Of a DNA stretch of 64,000 nucleotides, positions 1,511 through 24,800 are shown piece by piece. The stretch spans positions 1 to 64,000 of the forward strand of contig CAMHKW010000005.1 of NCBI GenBank assembly GCA_946185835.1, given 5' to 3'. Below the pieces are notes generated by a model that saw only the letters and a list, made by a program, of their open reading frames with translations, did not search any database and had not been told where the DNA came from. The position numbers were made by a program, and so were the translations under genes. This stretch comes from an uncultured Bacteroidales bacterium. Lineage in GTDB: Bacteria > Bacteroidota > Bacteroidia > Bacteroidales > Paludibacteraceae. Numbering within the stretch: position 1 is the first letter of the stretch; the number at the start of each line of letters is the position of its first letter.

Positions 1511-1663
1511 ATTCTTTCTGTTTGTTATGTATTTATATTCAGTTTGTATAATGCCTTGTTTTAGATGTGTCGTGTAACTGCATTTTTAATAAACATGCTG
1601 TTTCCGGAACTTTAACAATGTAAATTTCTCCTTGCAGGATACGCTTATATGCACACACACAAA

Positions 1664-1690
1664 GCGGTAACACCATATTGATATTACCGC
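1664..1690 (-). terminator. Hairpin terminator of ATPase gene 1
   Basis: On the minus strand GCGGTAA ... TTACCGC forms a 7-bp stem followed by TTTG. It lies 64 bases after the ATPase stop. The hairpin's upstream arm is also the left inverted-repeat end of the cassette. Confidence 0.6.
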
Positions 1691-1753
1691 TTCGTTTGGT
1701 TGAAGATATACCTTTATTGGAGGATAATCTATTTGAATCTATTTGAGGATACT

Positions 1754-3274: not shown

Positions 3275-3306
3275 GCAAAATTACACATTATATTTGGAAT
3301 AAACAA
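3275..3306 (-). promoter_or_regulatory. Bacteroidetes-type promoter for ATPase gene 1
   Basis: On the minus strand TTG (3306-3304), a 20-base gap, then TAATTTTGC (3283-3275). Predicted transcript start is near 3268, giving a leader of about 85 bases before the ATG at 3181. Confidence 0.65.
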
Positions 3307-3312
3307 GTATTA

Positions 3313-3403
3313 TCGTCCAAAAACAATGTTTTTGTTGTGTTTTTGGACGGAGTTGTGTTGTATATTCGTCCAAAAATCGCTGTGTTTATAATATTTTGGA
3401 CGA
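3313..3403. promoter_or_regulatory. Twin 38-bp inverted repeats (CGTCCAAAA...TTTTGGACG)
   Basis: Two inverted repeats of equal length, 3313-3350 and 3366-3403, each start with TCGTCCAAAAA and end with TTTTGGACG. Their centres are 53 bp apart, about five helical turns. They lie directly upstream of the -33 region of the ATPase promoter. This looks like a double operator; the regulator is not known. Confidence 0.5.
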
Positions 3404-3634
3404 GATTAAGAGTCTTGCAACTATTTGTTGCGGTAATATCAATATGTCAAAGACCACATTTAAGTACCAAGTGACCAAGTACAAAGTACCATTTATTTGA
3501 CCATTTGGTGCGCTTGCACTAATTCTTGCACGACTGCGCGCTCTGCGCTTGTATGGTGCTACGTTTTGTGCTACGCTTCCCCCGCTGCAAATGTAACCAT
3601 TTACACCGGGGACCCTATATTTTTCAATCCAGCG
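3404..3634. other. Intergenic stretch with right cassette end, otherwise featureless
   Basis: Together with the promoter and operators to its left this fills the 453-bp gap 3182-3634. It holds the right inverted-repeat end (3430-3446) and a short tandem-like stretch around 3470-3490 (AAGTACCAAGTGACCAAGTACAAAG-type). I see no gene in the rest. Confidence 0.5.
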
Positions 3635-6608: not shown

Positions 6609-6681
6609 GGTTTTAAGTTTGTGTTTGTTGGTCTATTATAGGTGGTGTGCCTTGTCGTGGTTAATGGGTGTACCGGGTTGA

Positions 6682-6713
6682 CATGAGACGAGTCGCAGCC
6701 TCGTCTCTACGTG
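6682..6713. repeat. 32-bp hairpin repeat, copy 1
   Basis: CATGAGACGAGTCGCAGCCTCG... contains GAGACGAG/CTCGTCTC, an 8-bp stem with a 7-base loop. An identical 32-bp copy is at 6857-6888, same orientation. Confidence 0.75.
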
Positions 6714-6734
6714 CCGGCGGGTGCGGGTGATGTG

Positions 6735-6759
6735 CCGCCAATAGCAAATTGGCGTACCC
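6735..6759 (-). repeat. Palindrome family GGGTACGCC, member 1
   Basis: On the minus strand GGGTACGCCAATTTGC then TATTGGCGG. Stem GCCAA/TTGGC. It matches the copy at 9776-9800 except that the inner stem pairs are A-T instead of G-C. Confidence 0.6.
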
Positions 6760-6820
6760 GGTGCTTGCGTGGTCATGGTGTGCTCACCGGGAGCGTGAGT
6801 ACCCTACTCGCGGTTCATTT

Positions 6821-6844
6821 GGGGCGCCGGTTTGTAGCCGGCGG
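6821..6844 (+). repeat. Palindrome family, member 2
   Basis: GGCGCCGGTTTGTAGCCGGCGG; stem CGCCGG/CCGGCG around TTTGTAG. Same family as 9776-9800 with a changed loop. Confidence 0.55.
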
Positions 6845-6856
6845 TTGCCGAGTTGT

Positions 6857-6888
6857 CATGAGACGAGTCGCAGCCTCGTCTCTACGTG
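6857..6888. repeat. 32-bp hairpin repeat, copy 2
   Basis: Identical to 6682-6713, 175 bp away in the same orientation. Confidence 0.75.
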
Positions 6889-6908
6889 TCGTGGGTAGCG
6901 GTGGTGAG

Positions 6909-6933: not shown

Positions 6934-7013
6934 GGTGCCTGAACCTGTTTGCACTGCGTCTGAGTCCGAGATCTCAACACTTAGCGGTGTCTTATCGTGT
7001 CAGCACACAAAAA

Positions 7014-7056
7014 GCGGTAACCCGCCGTGGTCTTGTACCACATATTGGATTACCGC
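7014..7056 (-). terminator. Hairpin terminator of ATPase gene 2
   Basis: On the minus strand GCGGTAA ... TTACCGC followed by TTTTTGTG. A second small stem (GTGGT/ACCAC) sits in its loop. It begins 36 bases after the gene's stop. Confidence 0.7.
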
Positions 7057-7091
7057 TACAGAGCAGATAGGTATTTGTTTATTTCTGTCTT

Positions 7092-8225
7092 TTATTTGCC
7101 TGACAGATATTGTGCAAAAAATATATCATACACGTACCATTTGCCGTTGTTCTCAATCACTATATCTTTTCCATACAGTCCTTTCAATGCAGCCTGAACG
7201 CTACTTGCAGAAACTAATTTGTACTTTTGAACGAATGCTCCGGATGTGATGTTTTCTACCCCATTTTCCTTTACTATGGCAAATAACAAACTTTTTTGTT
7301 TGGTCGGCAATGCTGCCAGAATCTCTCGATAAAAAGGCTCCTGTACTTGTACAACATTACGTAATGCCTCATCAATGGAACCGGTCTTGCAATGGTCTCC
7401 GGGATTAGTGATTGTAAACATCTCGTTAAGAAGCATCTGCATATACCATGTTATACCTCTACACAGCTCATATACTTGCCTGACAGCTTCATCTTCGATA
7501 GTTTTTTTGCCGAGGATGAACATCCGTTTGGCAAAATCAACATATATTTCGCAGGGAATAGGGTCAAGCCCCATATTAATCGTGCTTTGGTAAAACGGTT
7601 TGGAGGGAGAGAGAAACATTTGCGTCATAAGGTGTTTTCTGCTTCCTGAAAAGATGAACTGCGTTTTTGTGCATCGCTGTATGTATGTGCGCAGCAAGGC
7701 TTCTATATTCTTTTCGGGATACCTGGTCACTTGTTGGAACTCATCGAAAGCCACCACACAAGGTCTGTCCGCCGCCTCTAAGAAAGCGAATACTTGCTCT
7801 AACGTCATTTCCGGAGCGGCAATATCGCCTAAACCGATGTCGAAAGCCGGGGAGCCTGTGAGTGCGTCCAACTTGAAACCTACACGCAGTGAGGATATAA
7901 TCTGAAAGAACTTGTCTTTCCATGATTTTGACTGCCGTTCTACGCACCGATAGACCTCATTACTGAATGTATATACCATTTCAGCCAAACTGCCGGTGGC
8001 GTACAGGTCAACCGATATAGTATAAAACTGCTTTTGTATCTCAGGTTGCGCAAAGACATGGCTGATTAATCCCGATTTGCCAATACGACGGTCTGCAATT
8101 AGAGTCACATTCCGCCCATTGATGATTTGTTTTTCGAGAAAAGCAGTCTCTTGTTCGCGGTCACAGAAGTAGTCTGGCGACAAGTATCTCCCTATAACAA
8201 AGGGGTTTTTGCAATTATTGTCCAT
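7092..8225 (-). CDS. AAA ATPase (ATPase_2-like) of cassette 2
   Basis: The track starts at 8294, but that start lies upstream of the promoter -7 box (8253-8261). The ATG at 8225 (MDNNCKNPFVIGRYL) gives 377 residues and a short leader. Walker A is at about 43-51 (ADRRIGKSG), Walker B at about 155-160 (VVAFDEF). A C-terminal winged-helix-like region follows (SASSVQAALKGLYGKDIV). Unlike ATPase gene 1 there is no D...ExK nuclease-like tail, so the two cassette proteins belong to different subfamilies of ATP-binding proteins. The gene is solitary, with its own promoter and terminator. Function unknown. Confidence 0.85.
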   Translation of the reverse strand: MDNNCKNPFVIGRYLSPDYFCDREQETAFLEKQIINGRNVTLIADRRIGKSGLISHVFAQPEIQKQFYTISVDLYATGSLAEMVYTFSNEVYRCVERQSKSWKDKFFQIISSLRVGFKLDALTGSPAFDIGLGDIAAPEMTLEQVFAFLEAADRPCVVAFDEFQQVTRYPEKNIEALLRTYIQRCTKTQFIFSGSRKHLMTQMFLSPSKPFYQSTINMGLDPIPCEIYVDFAKRMFILGKKTIEDEAVRQVYELCRGITWYMQMLLNEMFTITNPGDHCKTGSIDEALRNVVQVQEPFYREILAALPTKQKSLLFAIVKENGVENITSGAFVQKYKLVSASSVQAALKGLYGKDIVIENNGKWYVYDIFFAQYLSGK

Positions 8226-8252
8226 GTAATTATTGTAATTATAATAATTGCT

Positions 8253-8284
8253 GCAAAAGTACATTTTTTTTCCGAAACACACAA
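8253..8284 (-). promoter_or_regulatory. Promoter of ATPase gene 2
   Basis: On the minus strand TTG (8284-8282), a 20-base gap, then TACTTTTGC (8261-8253). It sets the start codon at 8225 rather than 8294. Confidence 0.65.
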
Positions 8285-8448
8285 GAAGGAACAATAAAAT
8301 TCTTCAATTCGTGAAAAAAAACGGTAATCCAATATGTCAAAGAGCGTTTTCAGCTGAACAGTTTGTCAGCTTCGATGTTGCCTATAAGAGCATTAATGCA
8401 TCTGCTCCTAATGTGCGTTTTTATTATAATCGCTTTTTAGCGGCGAAG

Positions 8449-9851: not shown

Positions 9852-12800
9852 TCAAAACATTTCCACCCGTTTTCCGTTGGTGTCGTAGACGGTGCCGTTG
9901 GGGAGGATGATGTAGATGTATCCGTCGTGGTAAACCTTGCGTGGCTGAGCATCAGCGCCTCCATTAAGCAATCCTCCATTTTCACCATTAGCGCCAGCGT
10001 CACCATTCTGCAATCCACCATTAGCGCCAGCGTCACCATTTTCACCATTAGACAATCCACCATTGAGGTTCTCGAGGTTGGTGGCGATGCCGGGTTGGCG
10101 GAAGACGGTGCGCAGTATGAAGCGGTCGCGTGTGACGCCTTGTTCGGTCTGAGCTATGTAGTCATCTTCCAACAGGTCGACGAGCAGGTCTTGCTCGGCG
10201 TCGTAGAGGTAGACGTGGTCGAGTCGGCTCATGTATTCGGTTGGTTCGAGCGAGAAGAGGTAGATGCCCTCTTGAGCAGCGTTGACGGTGACAGGCAGTC
10301 CTGCCTGAGCCATGTCGTCGGGCACGGCAGCGAAGGCGAGGTCGCCGCAGCTGAGCGAGGTGTAGACGAGCGGCTTGCTGCCCGAAGTCGTGAGTTTGAC
10401 GACGTCGAGTTCGGTCTCGTAGTCAGCCGAGAAACGTGTCGGGTGCAAGAAGATATTGGTTACGTCTTTCGACAGACCGCTTTCGCTATTAGAGGTTAGA
10501 CCGCTGGCGCTGTTAGAGGTTAGACTTGTCGGTTCTGCGGGTGCCATCGGTTGTGCGAATCTGAGTCGGAGCCACTGTTCTTCGATGGAGTTGTCGGAGT
10601 AGTCGACGTCGTTCGAAGAGGAGGTGTAGGCATGCGCGCGGCGACGTACTATATTCGACGAGGTGGCGGCGAACGAGAGGTTACCCGAATTCTCTACCTG
10701 CAGGTAGAAGGGCACTGCGGGTTCGAGGTCGCGAGCCACGTCTTGGTAGTAGTTGACGTTGTCTTCGTAGAGCTTCGAGATCTTAAGCGTCTGCGAGGGG
10801 AACGGTGCCGTTATGTCGCTTGTCGTGGTGAAGGGCGAGACGACGACGTTCCATCCCTCGTTGGCAGCCGATGCACTTGGGTGGGCAGTGACGCCGACGG
10901 TGGCGGCGGCATTAGCATCGTAGGTCATGGGGAAGAGGTACTCGCGGTAGAACGCCGAGGTGGAGAGCAGCAGGTAGCCTTGTTTGGCATTCATGGTGTT
11001 GCCAGCGTCTTTGCTGTAGAGTTTCCAGTTGCCACCCACACCGTTGGCAGCGCGTGACTCGCCGTCGTAGTATTGTAAGGCAAAGTCGGTGCCTCGAGCG
11101 ATGGTGATGCCGTTGGTGAGTGTGACCTTCGTCAGGTCGACATCGAACGGGAAGCCGATGGGGTAGAGGTGTTGCTTATCCGCCACGATACGCGAGTAGT
11201 AGAACTTAGCACCATCGTTGAAGGCGAGTGTGCCGTTGTTGATAAGCTCGGGTGCGCGGTAGTCTATGTCCTTCTGAGTGCGCGTGCGCAGCGTGAGTCG
11301 TCCGCCGATGGTCAGTTTCTTGTCTTTGGCTATCTTGAGTTTAGCCCCCGGTGCCACGCTGACGGTGTCGATGCTCACGTTGTTGTCGATGGTGAGTGTG
11401 CCTTGGCGAACGACGACGGTGTTGGCTTTGTCGGTGGGCAGTGTAGATACGTTAGCATCTTTGTTGACCACGATAGGCACTTTGTAGAGATGGTAGCTCT
11501 CGGTAGCAGATTTGTCGTTGTTGCGTGCTTCGATGACGAACTCATCACCCGGGTTGAGGGCGCTGAAGCTCAGGTCGAGGGTGCGGTCGGTGTTGCGTAA
11601 TTCTTTGTTGTATTCGTGTCCGTCGCAGAGCAGTACCCAGTTCGACTTCGAGGTGGGCGACGAGTAGCCGTTCATGTTGAGTTGGCAGCCGGTCACCTTA
11701 CCGTTGGCGTCGGCAGTCCAGTCGACGATGTCGAGCCATGTGCCGAGTGAACGCAGCGTGGTGTTGAACTGTGCGGTGTATTCGGCATTTTGGCTGACAG
11801 CCACGATAGCGGGGCTCCAAGTGTCGTTGAAGGTGTAGCTCTCGGCTTGTGTTTGTGTTTTGGTAGGCGTTGTGCCGTTGTAAGTCGGTGTTGTGCCTTC
11901 CTTCCAGATATTGCCTGTATGTGGTGCGTCGGTGTTGACGAGCGTATTGTTGTCGCCATCTTTGAAGATTATCTCATAGCCTTTGGCAACTTCGTATTTA
12001 TATGGCGCTTCGGAAGCGGGCAGGTCGAAGACGTAGTATTCGGAAGTTTTATTGGTGGGTGCTACGTATTTCTGCAAGTAAGAAGTGTTGTCTTTGATAT
12101 TGAACCAGCCGCCTTGCAGTTTGAAGTTGGCAGTTGTAGCAGCATTATTCGTAGCAAATACAGAGCTTGTACCTGTCACTTTGAACTTACCGCCGTTGAC
12201 GGTCATCTTGGCAGTAGCAGAAGCGGCAGGGCAAGCGGTGCCTGATATCGTTGCTGCGGCTTGAGTAACAGTTCCGCTGCATATAATTCCGGCGATCGCA
12301 CTATTTCCATCAACAACGAATTCTCCGCCATTGACAGTCACCGTACCGGCAGAGGCATAGTTACCTATATAGTAGCCGGAGTTGGTACTCGTTATTTGGC
12401 GTTTATTAGCATAAGCTCTCACTCCGTAAACCGAATTATTGTCGGCAGAAGCCTTCGAAGTAGTTGCTACATCGAATGTGCCGCCATTGATTTCCAACTC
12501 GCCGTCGTAAGGCATACCTGTTGTTTCAGAAGGAGTCTCACCGGCAGAAGCGCCATAGACAGTAGCATTAGCGCGAACAGTGAATGAAGGATTACCATTA
12601 ATGGTTGTTTTCCCTTTATACACATGCACGCCGTAAGCAGTACTGGTGTTGGCTTTGATATCAAAGGTGCCACCCGATATGATAGTCTGACCAAATGAGC
12701 GTACTCCCACAGCAGTGCTTGTACCGGTCGTTTCGGCGGTCTTGACGTTGAATTTACCACCTGTGATTTCTGCGGTTGATTGATAGAGCGTCTTGACTTC

Positions 12801-15800
12801 GTTCGGGGTAGTCTTGGTATAGAATGCACCGAGGCCTGCATAAACTCCGTAGGCACCACTCGTATGCGAAGTAACATTGAATGTACCGCCATGAATATTC
12901 AGTGTTGACTCAGTTCCATACTCGCCCGGTGTATAGTCTGTCTCAGTTTTGGTTATCGTTCTTGTTGCAGGGATAGTGTATGCACCATAGGCATTTTTGC
13001 CGGTTGTAGTAGTTACATTGATAGTACCGCCTTCAACCGTGAGGGTTGACTTGTATGCCGCGCCGGTTCTACTATTGGTACTTGATAATGATGCCACACC
13101 ATAAGCAGCAGTAGGAGCCTCTACCGTAATGGTAGCACCGTCATAAATCGTTGTGGTATTCGCAAATGCTGCCACACCATAAGCGATGCCATGATTAGTT
13201 CCGGCAGGAACAGTAGCCTTTACCGTACCGCCATTAATCTTGGTTGTGCCGTTAGAGTAAACGCCGTATGCACGATAGTTACCCTTGGCTTCGACCGCAC
13301 CACCGTTCATCGTGAAGGTGTAGCCGACAGCTCTATTCACACCTACAGCGACAGCACCAAGACTTGTACCGTCGGTTCGCGGACGCCGGTTCTCGAAGTA
13401 TATTGTACCTTCTTCGAGTACTAAATTTCCGGCATTTACATAAACACCATATCTGGTGGCATTATCTACAGCCGTACCTGTATATACAGAGCCGATCTGT
13501 CCTTCTTTCTCGGCTGACTTATCGGTAATGGTAAAGGTTGACTTGTTCTTGTCAATATATAGCAGGCTATAGATAGTTCCTTCGACCTTATGGTTGTGAA
13601 GGTCTAAAGTACACTTATATGCAGTAGTAGGATTATACTGAAGTTGTGTTGTCAGTCCTTCAACATCTTGCAGCATGGTTATCTCTGCGTTGTTGCCTGT
13701 TTTAGCTTTTTCGAACGCATCGGCGAGTGTGGTGTGATAGGTTGTGGTAGAGCCAATCTTGACTGATGCCACATAGATGGTCCACCCGGCGGTGTAGGTC
13801 TGAGCTTCGGCAGGCATGGTGGCAGCCGGAGTAGCATCCCAGCCGTCGAATTGGTAGCCGTCGCGGGCGACTTTAGGAACGGTGATGGTAGCACCGTACT
13901 TAATGTCTATAGACGGTGTGCCGGTAGCATCTTTGGCGGCACCTGTACCTGCTGTAGTTACCGTACCGCCGCTAAGGTTCCATGTGAGGGTGTACTTGTT
14001 GCGAGTATAGCGATATTCTACAACACGTGTGCCGTCAGGCAGGATAGTTACCGTCTGTGTTGCGGGAGCAGTGAAGCCGGTGTAGGTCTTGACTGCCGGA
14101 GTTACAGAAGCATCGGTCGTGCCTGTGAGATTTTCTGTTTCAAAGAGCGTGTATTCGTCGTCGGCGATGTTCTGCTGATAGTGCTTAACGGTATAAGCCG
14201 TATTTGTGTTAGCCGTCCATGTAGCAGTGTAGGTAGTGTTAGCGGCAGGCATGGTAGCGACTACGGCAGGTGTCCAAGCGGCGAAGGTGTAGCCGGTCTT
14301 GGTTGGAGTAGCAGGAGCGGTAATAGCGGCTCCTACAGCTGTTATGCCCTGGGTGTAAGTGCCTGTAAGAGCATCGCCATCGGTTGTCCATGTGAGGGTG
14401 TAGGCGTCAACCACTTTGTATTTATAGTCGGAGCCAACCGCAGCTATTTCGGCAGCGGTCATTGGAACGCAATGCTTAGGTGCGACGCAATAGTTTTCAA
14501 GGTTGGTGTTGTGTGAGTAGTAGCCGCCTTGAAGTTTTAGATTATTGGTGTTAGTTACGACAGCGATGGTTGGGCTACCTGATTTGAACTTACCGCCGGT
14601 AATGGTTACATCGGCTTTGTTGACATTGCTTTCTTTCGTGAATTGCTGTGCATAAATACATGTGCTACCACTAATGAATGTACCGCCGGAGATGTTGAAA
14701 TATGCCGTATGATTAGAAACATATTGGTTGGCTGCCGCATAGATGGCATGAGTGGCGGCATTAACTATCGGGTTACCTGAGATATTGACTGTTCCTGAAT
14801 AAGTGCGAATAGCGATAGCAGAGGTCGTATGACTCTTGTTGGTAACAGTGAACGAGCCGCCTGAGATATTGACAACGGCATTCGGACTTGATCCCCAGAT
14901 ACGCACTCCTTCTATATTCCAATAGTCGGTTGTAGCGTGAGTACCGGTAGTAATGGTGAAGGTGCCGCCTTCAATATCTGCTTTAGCTGCACCTGCGTTG
15001 GTTGCCACTTCCACGCCATACGCACCATTGCCATTTGATGTGACTGTGAAGGTACCGTCTTTGACCGTAGCCTTACCGGCAGACTCCAAATGCACACCTG
15101 CTGCATTTTCACCATAGGAAGTAGCTTTGACAGTGCCGCTCTTGAATTGGATGTCGGCAGATGCACCTGAGTAGAAACCATAAGCTATAGATGTCTTGGC
15201 TGTTACATTGTATGTAGAGTTTTCGATGATAGCTTTGGCATTGGTGCCCGATGCATAAATACCGTAGGCTTTGTCAGCTGTTTTGGCTTCAACATTAAAT
15301 GTCAGGTTGTTTGCATTTATGGTAGAAGCATTGGCAAGATAGATGCCGTAGGCTGAACCTGAGTTGGCTGTTACATCGAATGTACCGCCGGTCAGATTAA
15401 AGGTATCGCCTGCTTTGGACTCACAGATGCCATACGCACCTGTGCCTGCCTTAACCGTATACTTTGTATTTTCGCTTATGGTAATCGGATTGGCGGATGT
15501 GTTGTTGATAAACATACCATACGCATTATTGCCCAAAGTACCGGTGGTCAGTTCGGTTGAGGCAATTACCTCGCCTCCGCTCATGTTGATAGTACCATAG
15601 TTGATATTTATACCTTGAACATTTGCTGCACCTACAACTTCCACCTTACCGCCCGACATGGTCAGTTTGGCTGTAGCGGAGTTAGCGCAGATACCAACTT
15701 TAGTACTTGTTGCATCTCCTGCATTGTTGTTCTTTACATAGATAGTACCGGCAAGCAGTTTTACTTCTCCTTTCAGAATGTTCAGTCCCCAAACTTGTTG

Positions 15801-18800
15801 GGCAGCGTTCTCTATATGCTCTATTCGTCCGCCTTTGTCGGTTGAGTTGTCGGTGATAGTAAGTAGGGCATCATCCTTATTAAATTGCAAAACTTCGAAT
15901 TTCGAGCCGGAGGTACTGATGGTCTTGTTATTTAAGTCGAGTGTGCCTTTCCAGTTAGCGATGGTAGGAGTGATGGTGTATCGTGCTGTCAGAGCGCAAT
16001 CGTGCAGAATAGTGATAGTCGGGTTGGCTTTGGTCTTGGCATAGTCGAGGGCAGCCTTGAGGTCGGTATAGTATGTACGGTTGCCGTTTTCTACTACCTT
16101 TGCCACGCGTTTTTGGCATACCTCGTAGGCATAGCCGGCAGTCTTGTTTGCATCGCCGTCTTCGAGTGTGAAGACTTCATACGGGTCGGAAACGAAGTTA
16201 GCTATCTGGTTCTTGAATGTGGAGCCTGTTTTCTCGTTGAAGAAGCCGTCGGTGATGGTGAGCGTTGACGGATCGGCACCGGCAGGTGCTGCATCCATTT
16301 GCACTATAGTTGAGCCTGTTGACTTAAACTTACCACCTTCGATAGTTACTTCCGAATGAGCGTTTCTTGAGTTGTTAGCCTTCGAAGATACGTATATTGC
16401 CTGAGCAGTAGTATTGAATGTACCACCTTTGACTGTCAGTTTGCCGGTGATAGGAGTAGCGTCAGCCCAGTCCATAGCACGGATACCTGTCGCTGCCGTG
16501 AATGTACCGCCGTTGATAGTGGTCTCACCACCGCGGATAGATACCGCTTGAAATTGTGTTCCGCTTTCTCCGCCATAGAATGTACCGCCATCGATTGTCA
16601 TCGTGGCATTATCCCCTGTTCGTATCGGCGACACATTAGATGCATTGGAGATGTTGTCAAGGGCATAGAATGTACCGCCGGTTATATGAGCAGTAGCGCC
16701 CAACAGCGCATATACCGTAATAGATGCACTATTAGCACTCGAGTATGAAGTAATGGTACCTCCTTCGATGGTTGCATTAGCATTATCCCCTTGTGCCAAG
16801 ACGGTATATGACGATGTTCCTGCATTTGCCCTGATTTTGGCATTTCCGCTAATGGTCAGTTGACCATTTCCCACATACGCTCCACGCGCAGCTTTGGTTG
16901 TACAAATAGCGGTGTCGCGGGCATTCTCGCTGATTGTCAGTTTTCCTCCACCTGCTACATAAAGACCATAAGCTGTTTCTGCAGATGCTATTGCTTTTAT
17001 GACCGCATTGCCTTTAACCTTGACATCGGCATTGGCATCCTGCGAATTCACGCCGCGGGCATCCGCTCCTTCAGCGAGAAGCAAACCGCCGGTTATGGTG
17101 GCAGGACCGTAAGAGTTAACAGCATAGGCTGTACCGGTAGCCTCTGCATGCGCCTTACCGTCGGTCATCTGGATAATGGCGTCAGAGCCGGTGGAGCGCA
17201 AAGCCTGTGCGCCTCCTGAGGTGTTCTTGCAATGCACCGTACCGCTCTCCAACACCAGCGTACCGTGATAAACGACAGCTGCGAAAGCAGCACCGCTCTT
17301 CTCATGGCTGAACTTACCGGTCTTGCCTGCCGACGAGTCTTTGATAGTAAAGGTACATCCGCCTTTGGATACTACGAGCAACCTGTCAGGTTCACCTGAT
17401 GTTGCCTGTCCTTTGAATGTAAAGCCGTTGAGGTCGAGCGTACACGACTTAGCCGTAGAAGGGTTATAGTAGAGGGTTGACCCGGCATAATCATCCACGG
17501 CACGCAGAAGCGTGATGGTTGATTTATCTTGCGTCTTGGCATAGTCGAGAGCATCTTTTAAGTATATGTATTTAGTAACCGTTGAGCCTACTGTTACCGA
17601 AGCCTGATAGTCAGGCTCTATCTTATAGCGATAGCCGTTGGCATGTTCGGGGTCGGCATTGGTAAGGGTAGTTATTTTGCAGGTATCGGCTTTGTGAGCT
17701 TCGAGGTGGTTGTTGTTAGAATAATAACCTCCCGTTAGACCTGCAAGTTTGACAGACGCATTACCTGTTTCGACATTAGCACCTGCTCCTGTTACTGTAT
17801 TGATAGTGCCATCGGCTTTGAAGGTTGCAATTTGCGACTTGAACTTACCGCCTTTGACAAATACCTCTCGCTTGGCTGTGCCGTAGGTACCTGTTACGGG
17901 TCCGTATTGATAGAATGTGCGAACCATTTTCTGACCGGAACAGATAAACTCACCACCATTGATGGTTATCTTCGACGACATCGCATAACCTGCCAATGCG
18001 GCAGCATCGGTAGCACTTGTAGAAGAGATACTTCCGTTAGTCCATGCGCCTATCACATTGCCATCGGCACCGGTTGCCGTTACATTGAACGTACCGCCGT
18101 TGACTTCAATCTCGGCAAGGTTATTTGTAGCATCTTTGTCGCAGTAGCTTGAGTGGTTCCACGGACCTGCTATTATACCTCTGGTCTGAGTTGTACCATT
18201 GATATTGAATACAGGATTGCCGCTAATGGTTACCTTGCCGCGATAGCAACCTATGCCCGTTGCACCAGAATTTTGATAGATGGTGAACGTACCGCCGGTG
18301 ATATTTATAGTACCCCAACAGCGGAGGATATCGTTATTATTTTTATTTACCACGTATGCTCCGTTGTCTCTCGTATCAACGAGGAATGTACCGCCTGAAA
18401 TAATGGCTTCAGCGCGGCTCTCGCCAATCAAGTTATGGTCGTCGTCGAACAAGCGTGCTCCGTTAGAAACCACGCTAAAGATTTGTGTTGCAGTAGCAGC
18501 CGGAGCGAGGGTCGTAAACTCGCCGCCAGTGATAGTGAGCGTACCATGTGCGGTAACTATTTCTTCGCCAATCTTTTTAACCACGCCGTCAGCAAATGCA
18601 CAGAATGCACTTGATGAAGCCGTCTGTGCTTTGAATTTACCTCCGGAGATGTTAACCGTAGCGCTTTGTGCTGACGCAGCCGTTGAGCCGATCCAAGCAC
18701 CTGCCATCACGGCATAGATGCCTGTAGCATTGCCGGTAGAGTATGCTTCAAAAGTACCATCGGTGATCGTGGCAGTATTCATCTGCTGCGAGAGGGCACG

Positions 18801-21800
18801 AGCGTTGTTGTATTTCTTGACTGTGGCTTTCACGAGTCCGCCGGAAACATTTACAGGACCATAGCCCGTAATAGCGTATGCTGTTATCTGGGCAGCCGCC
18901 TCAACAGTACCTCCTGTAACGGTTATCTTGGCATTGGCGGAGGCATTATATAAACCTCCTGCGGGATGCCAACCGCTGTCGTCGATAGTGTTCTCGCAAT
19001 AAACTTTACCGCCTGCCATAATCACTTCACCGTTATATACATAGACACCATAGATACTTGTACTGCTTGACATCTTCTTATAGATGCAGCCGCCCTTATC
19101 ATCTGATGTATCGGTAATGGTCAGTTTGGCATCAGCCTTGTTAACATGGATGGAGTATAGTGCACTGTTCTGAGTGAGAGTGAAGTTGTTGAGATCGAGG
19201 GTGGTGCGAGCATTGGCTATCGTCGGCTTATAAGCCAAATAGTCATCGAGAGTTACATTGTTGAGCAGCGTAATGTTGACATTGGCGTTGGTTGCTGCCA
19301 TAGCGTCGTTCCATGCCTCGTCGAAGTCGTCATAAATTGTCCATGCACCTGAACCAATCTTGACTTTGGCTACATGGTATTTGCCCTCGGCGTTGTAGGT
19401 GATGTCTGAAATGACGGGTGACGGCGTAGGAGTCCAACCGGTGAAGTAGAAGGTGGAGTCGTTGCGCACGAAGGATGTCACTTCGGTGTTGGAAGGTGTT
19501 TTACCACTTCTGACGGTTTCTGACTTAGTATATGAAGTGCCGGCTTTCCATGTTACGGTGAAGTCGGTGAGCAGTTGGTATTTATACGTCTTGCCGTCAA
19601 CCGTCTCGTTGATGTCGTTGATGGTGGTCGTAGCACCTTTGAGAGCGTTGATTTGATTTTTGAAAGTCGTGCCTGACTTCTCGAAATACTTACCGCCGTT
19701 GAGGACGAGAGTAGATGGGTTGGTACCGGCATCATTTCTCAAGTTTACAATATAAGAGCCTGTCGAGTAGAAGTAACCACCATTGATAGTTACATTGGCG
19801 TTGTTCTTAATAGTACTTTCTCTAACCAATCCGTAAGCACGCACGGCACAGTCTGTAGCTATGAACGTACCGCCATTGACAATCACGGTTGCCGTCTGCG
19901 TGGCAGAAGCGTAATCGACAGCGTGCAAAGCAGTTTTGGAAGTAATCTTACCACCGGTGATAGTGGTTGTACCGCCATGGACAGAGACACCTATCGGTGA
20001 TGCACCGTTATCCGATGATATATCACCGCCGGAGATATTGAGAATACCATTGCCGGAGCAGTGAGCACCTTCTACGTTCCACATGCTTGTCACATCTGCA
20101 ACAGTGGAGTGAGCATCAATAGTACCGCCATCGATATTTATTGTTCCGTACGCATTAACCCACGCACCAAATACACGCTTGGTCTTGGTGATGGCAGTTA
20201 CAGTTCCAGATTTGACGGTAATCTCACCTTTTGCCGTAGCCGAAGTGCCTTCGGCATATATACCGTAAGCATCTTGGTTGGCATGCGATGTGACAGTATA
20301 GGTTCCGTCAAGAGTAGCCTTTGCACCCGCTCTTATATGAACACCATAGGAGTAGTTGCCCCATGCCGGTGTGCCGGCATTGTCGTACTCGGTGCTCGCT
20401 AAAATAGCACCACCTGAGATGTTAACAACTTCTGTTCCACCGGCTTCTGTATAAACGCCTTTTGCTGACTGCCGTGCATACGCCTTGATATTTCCGCCTG
20501 TCATTGTGAAGGTGGTAGCTTGACAAGGATATACGCCAATTGAAGTATTGGTAGCGTTGTTGTTGCGCGCAAGGATAGTACCGCCACGGAGTTCGAGGTC
20601 GCCATAGTGTGTTGCAACACACATCACCAAACCTGCGCGTGTGCCTTCATATTTGATTACACCGTTCTTTTGAGCCGAACTGTCGTCGATGATGAATTTC
20701 GAGCCTGTCTTATTGATAACAAGGAAGCGGTCGTTGGCGGTGCCGGTGAAGGCGAGGGTATGGTTGTTGAGATCGAGTGTAGTGGTAGCGTTGGTGAAGT
20801 AAGCTTCGTCTTCGGTTGTGGTGCCTGCCGGTGGAGCGGGATTGTAGGTGAGTTGCACTGACGAGTTGACATTGCTGAGCAGCCTGAGTGTGCAATTCTG
20901 TAGTTGCTGTGCGTCGGTCCATGCTGTGGCGAACGATTCGAATCGCTTGCTTGTGCCGTTAGGCATAATAATCTCTGCTTCCCATTTCTTGAACACAGCC
21001 GTATAAGTGGCATCAGTAGTCACCGGTGCTATCTCAGGTGTCCAGCCGATAAAGTCATAGGTATTGCCATCGTTGATAGCAGGTGTAGAGCCGAACGAGG
21101 GTGTCTCGTTGCGGTTGTACTGCTTAACGGTGTTCACTCCGTTGACAGAGAAGGTGACGTTGTATTTGGTATTGACGCGATAGCGATAGCCTTCGGTATA
21201 TTCTGTTGTGCCGGAAGCTAAAGCTTCTGCCGTACTTGGCGAGACAACATATTGGGTCAGATTGCTTACATTCGATGAGGTATAAGAAGAATAGTACCCA
21301 CCGCGAATCTTGATGTTGCTTGTACTTGTATTGGCATTTACGATTACCGGTTTAACCGATGATGGCGAATGGAACTTACCGTCCCAGATGGTGAGGTCGC
21401 CGGTAACAACATCGGTATGCTCTGTGGCTTTTCCGGCATCCTTCACTGTTGAGGTAGTATAACAACGCACTGCATCGCCAACAGTGGCATTGAACGTACC
21501 GCCGTCAACGACCATGGTGGCAGTACATGTAGCCGCAGCCCATGAACCTATATCTATACCATAGCGAGCCGTGAAAGTAGGATTGCCTGAGATATGGGTT
21601 GTACCGCCAAATGCACGGACTGCATAGCCGCCTTTTGTCATAGTGAAGCTACCACCTGAGATATTGAGTTGTGCAGTGTTGTTGGTTGCACTTCCGTTAA
21701 TGCGAGCCGCATCGTTGTTGCCCCCATCTTGAGGTGCTATTGCAGTGAATGTACCGCCTTCGACATTCACAACGCCCGCTTCTTGAGCCCAAACACCGAA

Positions 21801-24800
21801 AGCATTTTCATACCCGGAAGTCTTAACCTCACTTGTGAATGTACCTCCTTTAATTTTTGCCACACCACCGGCATGAGCTGTAACGCCCGTTGCGCCACTT
21901 GCATTTGTCGCATAGACATTGAAGGTTCCGCTCTCCACATTGACTTCCACGTTTGAGTTGCCGTATGAATACACTCCATAAGCTCCGGTATTCATACCAT
22001 TGACAATAAATATTGGATTGCCGGTAACATTAGCCAAACCATAGTTCTCACCGGAAACTGTCATATAGATACCTCTTGCGGTACTCCATGTGCTGCCATC
22101 TTTTATTGCCGTCACGTTGTAGGTACCACCGGTAATATCCGCTGCACCATAGCCATAAACTCCGAATGCCTGACAGCCGTTTACATTTACAGTCAAGCCG
22201 TCTTCCAATGTTGTCTGAACATTACGGCGCATTACTTGTATGCCGGCAGCTTGATATTTGGCATGTGTTGCATTGATTGTACCACCGGATAATGTGGTCT
22301 TTGAATAAGCATATACGCCGGTAGCAGCACCGGCAGCAGTAACAGCATCGCCTTCTTTCTTTGCTTCAATAATACCACCGGTCATTGTGAACACACCGCC
22401 ATTGGTTTGTACGCCGACAGCATTGCAACTTGCATGGGTGTTGTTACACTTTAGACCGCCGCCTTGCAAAATCAATTCGCCGCCTGTAACATTAGCACAA
22501 ATCAGATTCTCACCGCAAGCCCATTTGTTCATCAAGTAACCGTTGCCTGCGGCTGAGTTGTCGGTAACGATGAGTTTGCAATTAGCCTTTGACGGACTGA
22601 CTTTGAGGAATACATTTTTATTGTATGAGGCAGTCGTGTGGTTACCCATGGTCCAGATATGTCCGTTGAGGTCAAGGGTGATGATAGAACCTTCGTTGGC
22701 AGGGTTGAATACCAACTCTGTCATATTACCAACATTGGCTTCGCTACCGAGGTTGCTCAGGATGCGGATAGTTGCCTGTTTGTGCTTCATGGCTTCTGTC
22801 CATGCTACTTGAGCAGAATTATAGCGTGTAGTCGTACCATCAGCTGTTACATCGGCATAGATGGCTTGACAGGCAGCGTAGTAGGTAACATCAGATGCCG
22901 CAATAGCGGGCAAAGGTGTGCCGTTAACGTATTGAGTTCCTCTGTTCCATGTGTCTGTCGCCCAGCCAATCCATTCGCGTTCTGATGTCGCATCTTTATA
23001 GTCAGGACGCTCGCCTGTCCATACCGGCACCTTGCCGCTTTCCACTTGCGTCGTGGCAAGCTTCGTTGCACCGTTAAAGCTCATCCATGTCACGGTATAT
23101 TCATTACCGGCAATTTTCTTTACATATCCGGCATCATAGATGGCTTGCTCTTTTGCCCTAACAACGTCCTTCACCGACTTGCCGGCGGCGATATTAGTTG
23201 TTCCGTTAGGAGCGACATTATAGTAACCGCCAGCCATTGAGAAATTGGCAAGTGTGGCACCTGTGTTATTGATAGTACCATTAGCAGATCCATCGCTATT
23301 CTTCACCATGAACTTACCGCCGTTGATAGTCAGTTTAGGTGCGTTTGCCGTTGTAACATACATACCATAGGCATCGGTGGTCTTGGCTGTTACCTTGAAA
23401 TCACCATCGTTTACCGTACATGTTCCTTTATCGGCATAGATGCCGTATGCTTTATTGGTAGAAAGTGTCTTTACAACGAATGTACCGCCGTTAACCGTAA
23501 CGGTAGGAGTGCCACTTACATAATAAATGCCTGAAGCATCGGAGTTGGCATTGACATTGATAGTGACTCCGGCGTTGATTGTTGTAGTGTTGTTAGCTAC
23601 ATACAGACCTTTAGTATCAGATGTGCCGGCTGTGGTAGTTATCGTACCGCCGCTGATTGTAGTTGTACCGTATGAGATAATACCGCGTGCAGTAGTTGTG
23701 GTTGTGGTACTTGTGATATTGCCGCCATTGATATTGGCTTTAGAACCGGCAGTTACATACACACCATAAGTTATGCTGCCGGCTGAAGCTTTGATAGTGC
23801 CGCCTGTGGTAGTAAATGTGCTGTTTGCATTAGTCAGATTGACACCATAAACGTATTTTGAAGATGTGGAATGAGCGTTAATAGTACCTCCGTTAACATT
23901 GATTGTTCCACCTTCACTATATATACCGCTTACCAATTTATCGGCTGTACCGGTTGATGTAACGTCAATTGTTCCGTCATTGATATTGACGACCGTCGTG
24001 GTGGTCGATGGTATGTTAATACCATGAGATGCACCATTCGATACCGCCTCTACCTTACCGCCGTTCATGGTGAACTTCTGACCGGAATAAAGATGCACTG
24101 CGTTGGAACCTTTCGAGGTATGGGTATTCTCTATATGCACCGTACCGCTGTTCAGAATCAGATGACCTTTGGTGACGTTGATACCATATACAGGATTGTC
24201 GCTGCGCGAGAACTTGGATAGTATCTTACCTGTTCCGGCACCGTTCTGGTCTTTGATGATGAAAGTAGCCGAAGCGTTATTGATGGTAATCATACTGGTT
24301 ACCTTACCGGTGAGAGTATGTCCGTTGAGGTCAAGACCGCAGTTGTTAGCGCCGTCATAGGTAAAAGCAGAGGTAATAGTCAGGTCTTTGAGCAGTCGGA
24401 TGGTTACATTGGTACCTCCGGCTTTGGCTTTGGTTTTAGCTGTTTCAAGTGCATAGACTTGTTCTGTTCCGGCAGAGGTAACGACCTCAGCCACAGGTGT
24501 GGCAAGCGTCCATGCACCACCGCTATACTCGTAGTAGATCTTCACGTTGGTGGCAGAGAGCGAATAATACAAGTCAACGGTGGCGTCGTTCTGCACGGCA
24601 AGCCAATCGCCGTTGTACCATATATACACCGTACCGTCCACCGTATAGGCTTTCTCCTTGCCTGCCACTTTGGTTGCCGGATGCCATACGCAGCCGTCGA
24701 AACAGATATAATATGTAGTGGCTGCTCCGACTTTATGATATGCCTCATCGCCTGTATTCTTCTCTATCTGCACAAAACTGCCGTTAACCAATGCCTTCTT

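Follow-up and report, generated by a model that had tools for sequence, protein, structure and literature searches.

The window, that is, the whole stretch of 64,000 nt that we analysed (contig CAMHKW010000005.1, positions 1-64,000; assembly GCA_946185835.1, Paludibacteraceae), carries two ATPase genes, each enclosed by a pair of short inverted ends. Both cassettes lie wholly on the minus strand and follow the same plan of parts (Table 1), cassette 1 running from 3456 down to 1660 with the core ATATTACCG. As an earlier note on this DNA had observed, the inner core is unlike between the two cassettes and the same at both ends of each: CGGTAATCCAATATG faces outward at both ends of cassette 2, and CGGTAATATCAATATG does so in cassette 1. 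The pattern CGGTAATN{0,4}AATATG finds just these four cassette-end sites in the 64 kb, against 0.01 expected. The consensus CGGTAATnnCAATATG given in that note holds for cassette 1 and fails for cassette 2, which is shorter by one base. No tRNA genes were found in the window.

Table 1 Parts of the two ATPase cassettes, with positions in the window.
Feature	Position	Strand	Evidence
Cassette 2 boxA CGCTCTTTGACATATTG	8330-8346	-	boxA pattern search; equals the 16S-23S spacer boxA of the genus, GCGATCTTTGACATATTG (L247)
Cassette 2 5' strand CATATTGGATTACCG	8322-8336	-	perfect complement of 7041-7055; duplex -25.1 kcal/mol
Cassette 2 probable internal promoter, -7 box TACTTTTG (Bacteroidetes TANNTTTG)	8254-8261	-	read from sequence
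Cassette 2 ATPase gene, 376 aa from MDNNCKNPF	7092-8222	-	weak ATPase_2 and AAA_14 matches, under curated cut-offs
Cassette 2 3' strand CGGTAATCCAATATG	7041-7055	-	inverted match to 8322-8336 (+)
Cassette 2 intrinsic terminator, left arm = 3' strand	7009-7057	-	fold -24.9 kcal/mol and T-run
Cassette 1 boxA TGGTCTTTGACATATTG	3440-3456	-	boxA pattern search
Cassette 1 5' strand CATATTGATATTACCG	3431-3446	-	perfect complement of 1674-1689
Cassette 1 probable internal promoter, -7 box TAATTTTG	3276-3283	-	read from sequence
Cassette 1 ATPase_2 family gene, 475 aa	1754-3181	-	Pfam ATPase_2 over cut-off; PADLOC PDC-S27, 573 bits, full length
Cassette 1 3' strand CGGTAATATCAATATG	1674-1689	-	inverted match to 3431-3446 (+)
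Cassette 1 intrinsic terminator overlapping 3' strand	1660-1693	-	fold -23.5 kcal/mol

The two ATPases belong to different families. NCBIfam has no name for either of them, and the cassette 2 protein has no match to the PADLOC profiles PDC-S01 and PDC-S27. Between the 5' end and the promoter of cassette 1 (3312-3403) lie short direct and inverted repeats, CGTCCAAAAA/TTTTTGGACG, and the ATPases of loci L023, L024, L025 and L026 are likewise preceded by their own sets of short repeats, which look like operators or iterons particular to each ATPase. Upstream of cassette 2, one open frame of 5820 aa (9852-27314) encodes a repetitive secreted protein; giant secreted-protein genes adjoin many cassettes. 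Palindromes such as GTAGAGACGAGGCTGCGACTCGTCTC and CGCCAATTTGCAATTGGCG recur beside several cassettes of the window genome (window 6680-6900; downstream of the L024 cassettes).

The rRNA boxA at the cassette head

The upstream end of the cassette is the boxA of the rRNA spacer (YGNTCTTTGACATATTG); the strand that comes right after it is complementary to the downstream end of the same cassette. The earlier note had read TCAAAGA as the continuation of the right end of cassette 2; it is present, and its fuller identity is the complete boxA motif of the rRNA operon of the genus. The single 16S-23S spacer from the genus that was compared has the same boxA as the cassettes; other Bacteroidales families have GTTCTTTGACATATTG ahead of the 23S gene. 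In cassette 2 the 5' strand stands immediately 3' of the boxA 12-mer and is partly shared with the 3' extension of boxA. The flank 5' of the search pattern is conserved as YGNTC, with G in 113 of 113.

Searched alone, the boxA motif is present in 91 of the 178 genomes of the genus, where many additional sites also head cassettes, their cores unrelated and their cargo sometimes antisense. Elsewhere in Bacteroidales the motif mostly occupies one site per genome, several of these before 23S, and no comparable partner strand was found there. One locus (L389, G071:C8) has two units in which either end bears a complete boxA, the two copies being inverted relative to each other and the cores matching in each unit. 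At different sites (group A loci L080, L090, L109, L118, L123 and L130; also L356 and L388), boxA has in front of it short repeated spacers, for example CCAAATGGTACATCGTAAATGACCAAATGGTAAATGAATTG, which may travel with the cassette.

Distribution, cargo and placement in operons

About 200 cassettes of this design occur in one genus of rumen Paludibacteraceae. The window's own genome has the pattern 11 times, and the reversed control none. Across the family, TTTGACATATTGN{0,4}ATTACCG was found in 57 of 358 genomes (control 0), all but one of them in one genus; the exception is a genome of another genus. In GTDB, the exact 20-mer is found in contigs of rumen Bacteroidales or Paludibacteraceae MAGs and in one record labelled Eubacterium, which is probably mis-binned. 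The SSU rRNA match of a further MAG (L250, G107:C40) looks eukaryotic (GCGGTAATTCCAGCTCCAATAGCGTA), and that bin therefore probably includes a contaminating contig. A viral origin was considered and rejected: the 15-mer occurs in 50 stretches of IMG/VR, a number that we attribute to chance given the size of that collection, and no stretch there has the 21-base 5' end.

The fetched neighbourhoods contain 133 distinct 5' ends, and their cargo falls into 46 protein clusters. Pfam names of the cluster representatives include AAA_14 with DUF4143 and ATPase_2; the toxin-antitoxin types YoeB, YafQ, Gp49 with HTH_3 (HigBA-like), HepT with nucleotidyltransferase (HepT/MNT), ParE, PIN and others; and MqsA-like (weak), RelE, GNAT, KilA-N, Bro-N and aspartyl protease. 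By PADLOC, many cargo ATPases are the phage-defence candidates PDC-S27 and PDC-S01, the PDC-S01 match reaching 610 bits for ATPases other than those of the window and being weak for some. Units with no gene also exist, with 60-70 bp between the ends. Among the scanned cargo representatives there was no transposase or recombinase, although such an enzyme could be supplied in trans.

The ends, matched in the two examples seen before, behave as a pair in far more cassettes and cores. It had further been proposed that unrelated ATPases share one mobilisation system. Unrelated cargoes with one end design do come and go at the same site, but the ends are not specific to ATPases, since toxin-antitoxin modules and empty units have the same ones; an explanation in terms of ATPases alone is ruled out by the toxin-antitoxin cargo.

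In orientation the cassettes follow the host genes. The boxA is co-directional with the downstream gene at 76 of 83 sites (92%; p ~1e-15 versus random orientation) and with the upstream gene at 137 of 175. The downstream gene starts at a median of 166 bp past the cassette; many of these genes are for large secreted proteins, others are ordinary cell genes. The clearest junction is that of a pair of small membrane-protein genes, which overlap by 4 nt or are separated by 2-29 nt in seven relatives. In four other relatives the junction is filled by 570-1761 bp: by cassettes with the core GATTTACCG (L388, L356), by one with the core GAATTACCG (L088) and by a relic (L430). At this junction, the second gene would be cut off by any cassette that brings a terminator of its own, unless there were read-through.

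Loci with flanks about 91-97% similar hold different or emptied cassettes, and homology breaks at the ends (e.g. L022, L244, L085), indicating that units move or are swapped. No clear target duplication was seen when filled and empty junctions were compared, where neighbouring spacers are repetitive and the exact insertion points cannot be fixed. As to the surroundings of the window itself, one relative that retains the lgt-sulfatase pair (G174, L457; lgt 67% identical) has no boxA cassette within 1.5 kb upstream of lgt.

These observations bear on the idea that the ends are conserved flanks of duplicated paralogues, functionless in themselves. Neighbouring cassettes on the same contig do share upstream and downstream flanks in the manner of tandem duplicates. 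The ends are nevertheless common to unrelated genes, the cores differ and yet match inside each cassette, and a single operon junction has no cassette in some relatives and different cassettes in others. We regard this explanation as highly improbable, and simple paralogue duplication as a full account is ruled out by the cassette-specific cores, the unrelated cargo and the empty or filled gaps.

Paired ends, terminator and probable internal promoter

To measure the pairing of the two end strands, we took 71 boxA sites without ATTACCG and matched the 16 nt that follow boxA against complemented downstream DNA, either from the site's own locus or, as a swapped control, from other loci. Complements of at least 9 nt were found at the own locus in 42 of 71 cases (9.0 expected), of at least 10 nt in 26 (3.1 expected) and of at least 11 nt in 15 (0.8 expected), counts that are not all independent because some cores recur in several loci. 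Own-locus complementarity far over the swapped controls supports a closing helix that spans the unit; about one third of the sites in this test had no convincing partner strand. Examples of strand pairs are CATATTGTGATGAAACA with TGTTTCATCACAATATG (L097), CATATTGTGATGAT with ATCATCACAATATG (L099), GATTTACCG with CGGTAAATC, and AAAAAGACTGA with TCAGTCTTTTT.

In the ATTACCG set the 3' strand is present in 117 of 128. Transitions among its departures keep a G-U pair in 41 cases versus 11 that break the pair (p=0.003, related loci not being independent), and 85 further departures are transversions, mostly at outer bases; many 3' strands have decayed beyond the core. The median duplex energy is -21.7 kcal/mol with the own strand versus -8.5 kcal/mol with foreign 5' strands, in a set whose pairs were chosen for complementarity. 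In the sequences compared, pairing is the conserved property, and sequence is not.

The 3' strand is also tied to the transcription stop. The fold that had been noticed at the left end of cassette 2 is a minus-strand hairpin with a T-run; it is an intrinsic terminator, and the inverted-repeat strand forms its left arm. Of the 73 cassettes in which terminator and 3' strand could both be located, unrelated cores included, 71 have a 3' strand that overlaps the left arm of the terminator, against a background of terminator-like hairpins in 75 of 549 random windows. Terminators accompany sense cargo in 34 of 52 cases and antisense cargo in 2 of 10 (p=0.013). In cassette 1 the duplex of the 3' and 5' strands (-26.7 kcal/mol) competes with the terminator fold (-23.5 kcal/mol). 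A general energy comparison of the two competing helices was discounted, the search pattern having fixed the 5' strand. Within the terminator loop or next to it, L069, L124 and L129 have a segment of about 130 bp in the orientation opposite to that in L072, L113 and L117, as if inverted between GCGGTAATCC repeats.

The matched pair of ends had been compared to terminal repeats. On such a DNA-level reading, the ends would be terminal inverted repeats read by a transposase or recombinase acting in trans, with boxA derived from the target or hitch-hiking. In its favour, cassettes are clearly gained and lost, or exchanged, at fixed ends; the inverted repeats stand at both ends, also with antisense cargo and in the gene-less units of 60-70 bp; the L389 units have the full boxA at both ends; and the terminator-loop segment of group D occurs in both orientations, as if inverted between repeats. 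With unrelated cores, however, one enzyme would have to recognise CATATTG only, neither a recombinase in the scanned cargo families nor a clear target duplication was found, and co-direction with the downstream gene would be unexpected for a transposon. As boxA is usually at a single end and mostly faces the downstream gene, the paired strand overlaps and tracks the terminator, and complementarity is conserved in place of a common sequence, a reading at the RNA level fits better, and we consider the transposon-like one unlikely.

The Bacteroidetes -7 motif TANCTTTGY is found 20-330 nt after boxA at 91 of 190 sites in the sense direction and at 1 of 190 in antisense. By this position, the cargo mRNA probably starts beyond boxA and the 5' strand. 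This speaks against the possibility that it is the cargo, and not the downstream host genes, whose expression boxA and the paired ends control, for instance by Nus-dependent regulation of the toxin or ATPase from read-through transcripts: the main cargo transcript would be without boxA. In favour of that possibility, toxin-antitoxin genes are abundant in the cargo, and in Citrobacter koseri the Nus targets include a boxA that precedes the gene of a ParE-like toxin (PMC5725501). The cargo can nonetheless run antisense to boxA, and the orientation follows the downstream host gene, making such regulation quite improbable in our judgement.

Proposed antitermination and known systems

Starting with boxA and ending in paired strands that overlap their own transcription stop, the cassettes look built to sit in operons without silencing the genes behind. 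We consider it fairly probable that they are mobile cassettes made transcriptionally transparent by antitermination of the rRNA type. With sense cargo, the proposed order is boxA, 5' helix strand, internal promoter, cargo and 3' helix strand overlapping the intrinsic terminator, with boxA oriented as the host genes behind. Transcripts of the cargo would begin within the cassette, contain neither boxA nor the 5' strand, and end at the terminator. In host transcripts arriving from upstream, boxA would be made first; NusB-S10 would bind it and keep the 5' strand close to the exit channel for RNA, in the way suggested for the leader-trailer helix of rRNA, and Rho would be kept off. The emerging 3' strand would then be captured from the terminator by the 5' strand, and transcription would go on into the downstream gene. 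Where the cargo is antisense, boxA may guard untranslated RNA against Rho. The published model of rRNA antitermination has the same order of parts (PMC10250234). For the cassettes, computation shows the boxA identity, the pairing, the terminator overlap, the -7 motif, the co-direction and the insertion into operons with varying cargo, whereas Nus binding, read-through and the benefit to the host are what we infer.

Some observations do not sit easily with transparency. Cassettes with antisense cargo keep their paired ends though they have no terminator to disarm, suggesting that the helix has some other or additional role; this is the main weakness of the proposal and leaves room for a role of the ends at the DNA level. 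The boxA at both ends of the two L389 units, the many 3' strands that have decayed outside the core, the many departures that are transversions and the third or so of non-ATTACCG sites with no convincing partner also count against it.

Several known systems share parts of this design. As in rRNA operon antitermination (boxA, NusB-S10, leader-trailer helix), the cassettes have the rRNA-spacer boxA of the genus, then directly a strand pairing with a distal strand, and a long RNA between. Unlike rRNA operons, they enclose mobile protein-coding RNA that has a promoter of its own, and their distal strand also serves as a terminator's left arm; the rRNA helix in this comparison is that of the published model. 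Integron cassettes, of which chromosomal integrons hold many with toxin-antitoxin genes, resemble them in single-gene or toxin-antitoxin cargo, arrays, a folded 3' end and cassette exchange. The boxA cassettes, in contrast, are scattered in operons and not behind attI, have boxA as 5' end and cassette-specific cores, and their hairpins share no single sequence. The pdif modules of Acinetobacter plasmids carry toxin-antitoxin and other genes between inverted short sites and are moved without an enzyme of their own. The boxA cassettes likewise hold such genes between inverted short ends, but are chromosomal, with boxA at one end and cores not common between units; read by eye, their ends appear to have no fixed 11-6-11 dif layout or two-arm pattern.

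As in attenuators with mutually exclusive terminator and antiterminator, one strand pairs either with the right arm of the terminator or with an upstream strand; in the cassettes, by contrast, the strand that competes is next to boxA, as far as 1-2 kb upstream, and is not part of the cargo transcript. Sites of boxA outside rRNA have been described at suhB and at the ParE-like toxin gene of C. koseri (PMC5725501). The cassettes share with these a boxA outside rRNA, in one case at a toxin gene, but the published sites are single ones near a gene, and no cassette, closing helix or mobility is described for them.

Each part is known by itself: boxA in rRNA operons, the helix of leader and trailer, cassettes with toxin-antitoxin genes, and a boxA beside the gene of a ParE-like toxin. 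In the open-licence papers searched, neither boxA-headed cassettes nor this combination of parts is described. We lean towards regarding these units as a previously undescribed class of mobile cassette that copies rRNA antitermination logic, in which boxA and a cassette-spanning helix would disarm the cassette's own terminator, letting defence and addiction genes insert in working operons whose own genes stay expressed.

So far boxA has been described chiefly in rRNA operons and phages and at a few single genes; in this one genus it heads about 200 cassettes. If the mechanism is true, insertions with their own promoter and terminator can occupy operons while the genes behind are kept, and the units would be natural expression cassettes, insulated yet transparent. 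The boxA tether proposed for rRNA would then be testable on non-essential units with many natural pairs of matching strands.
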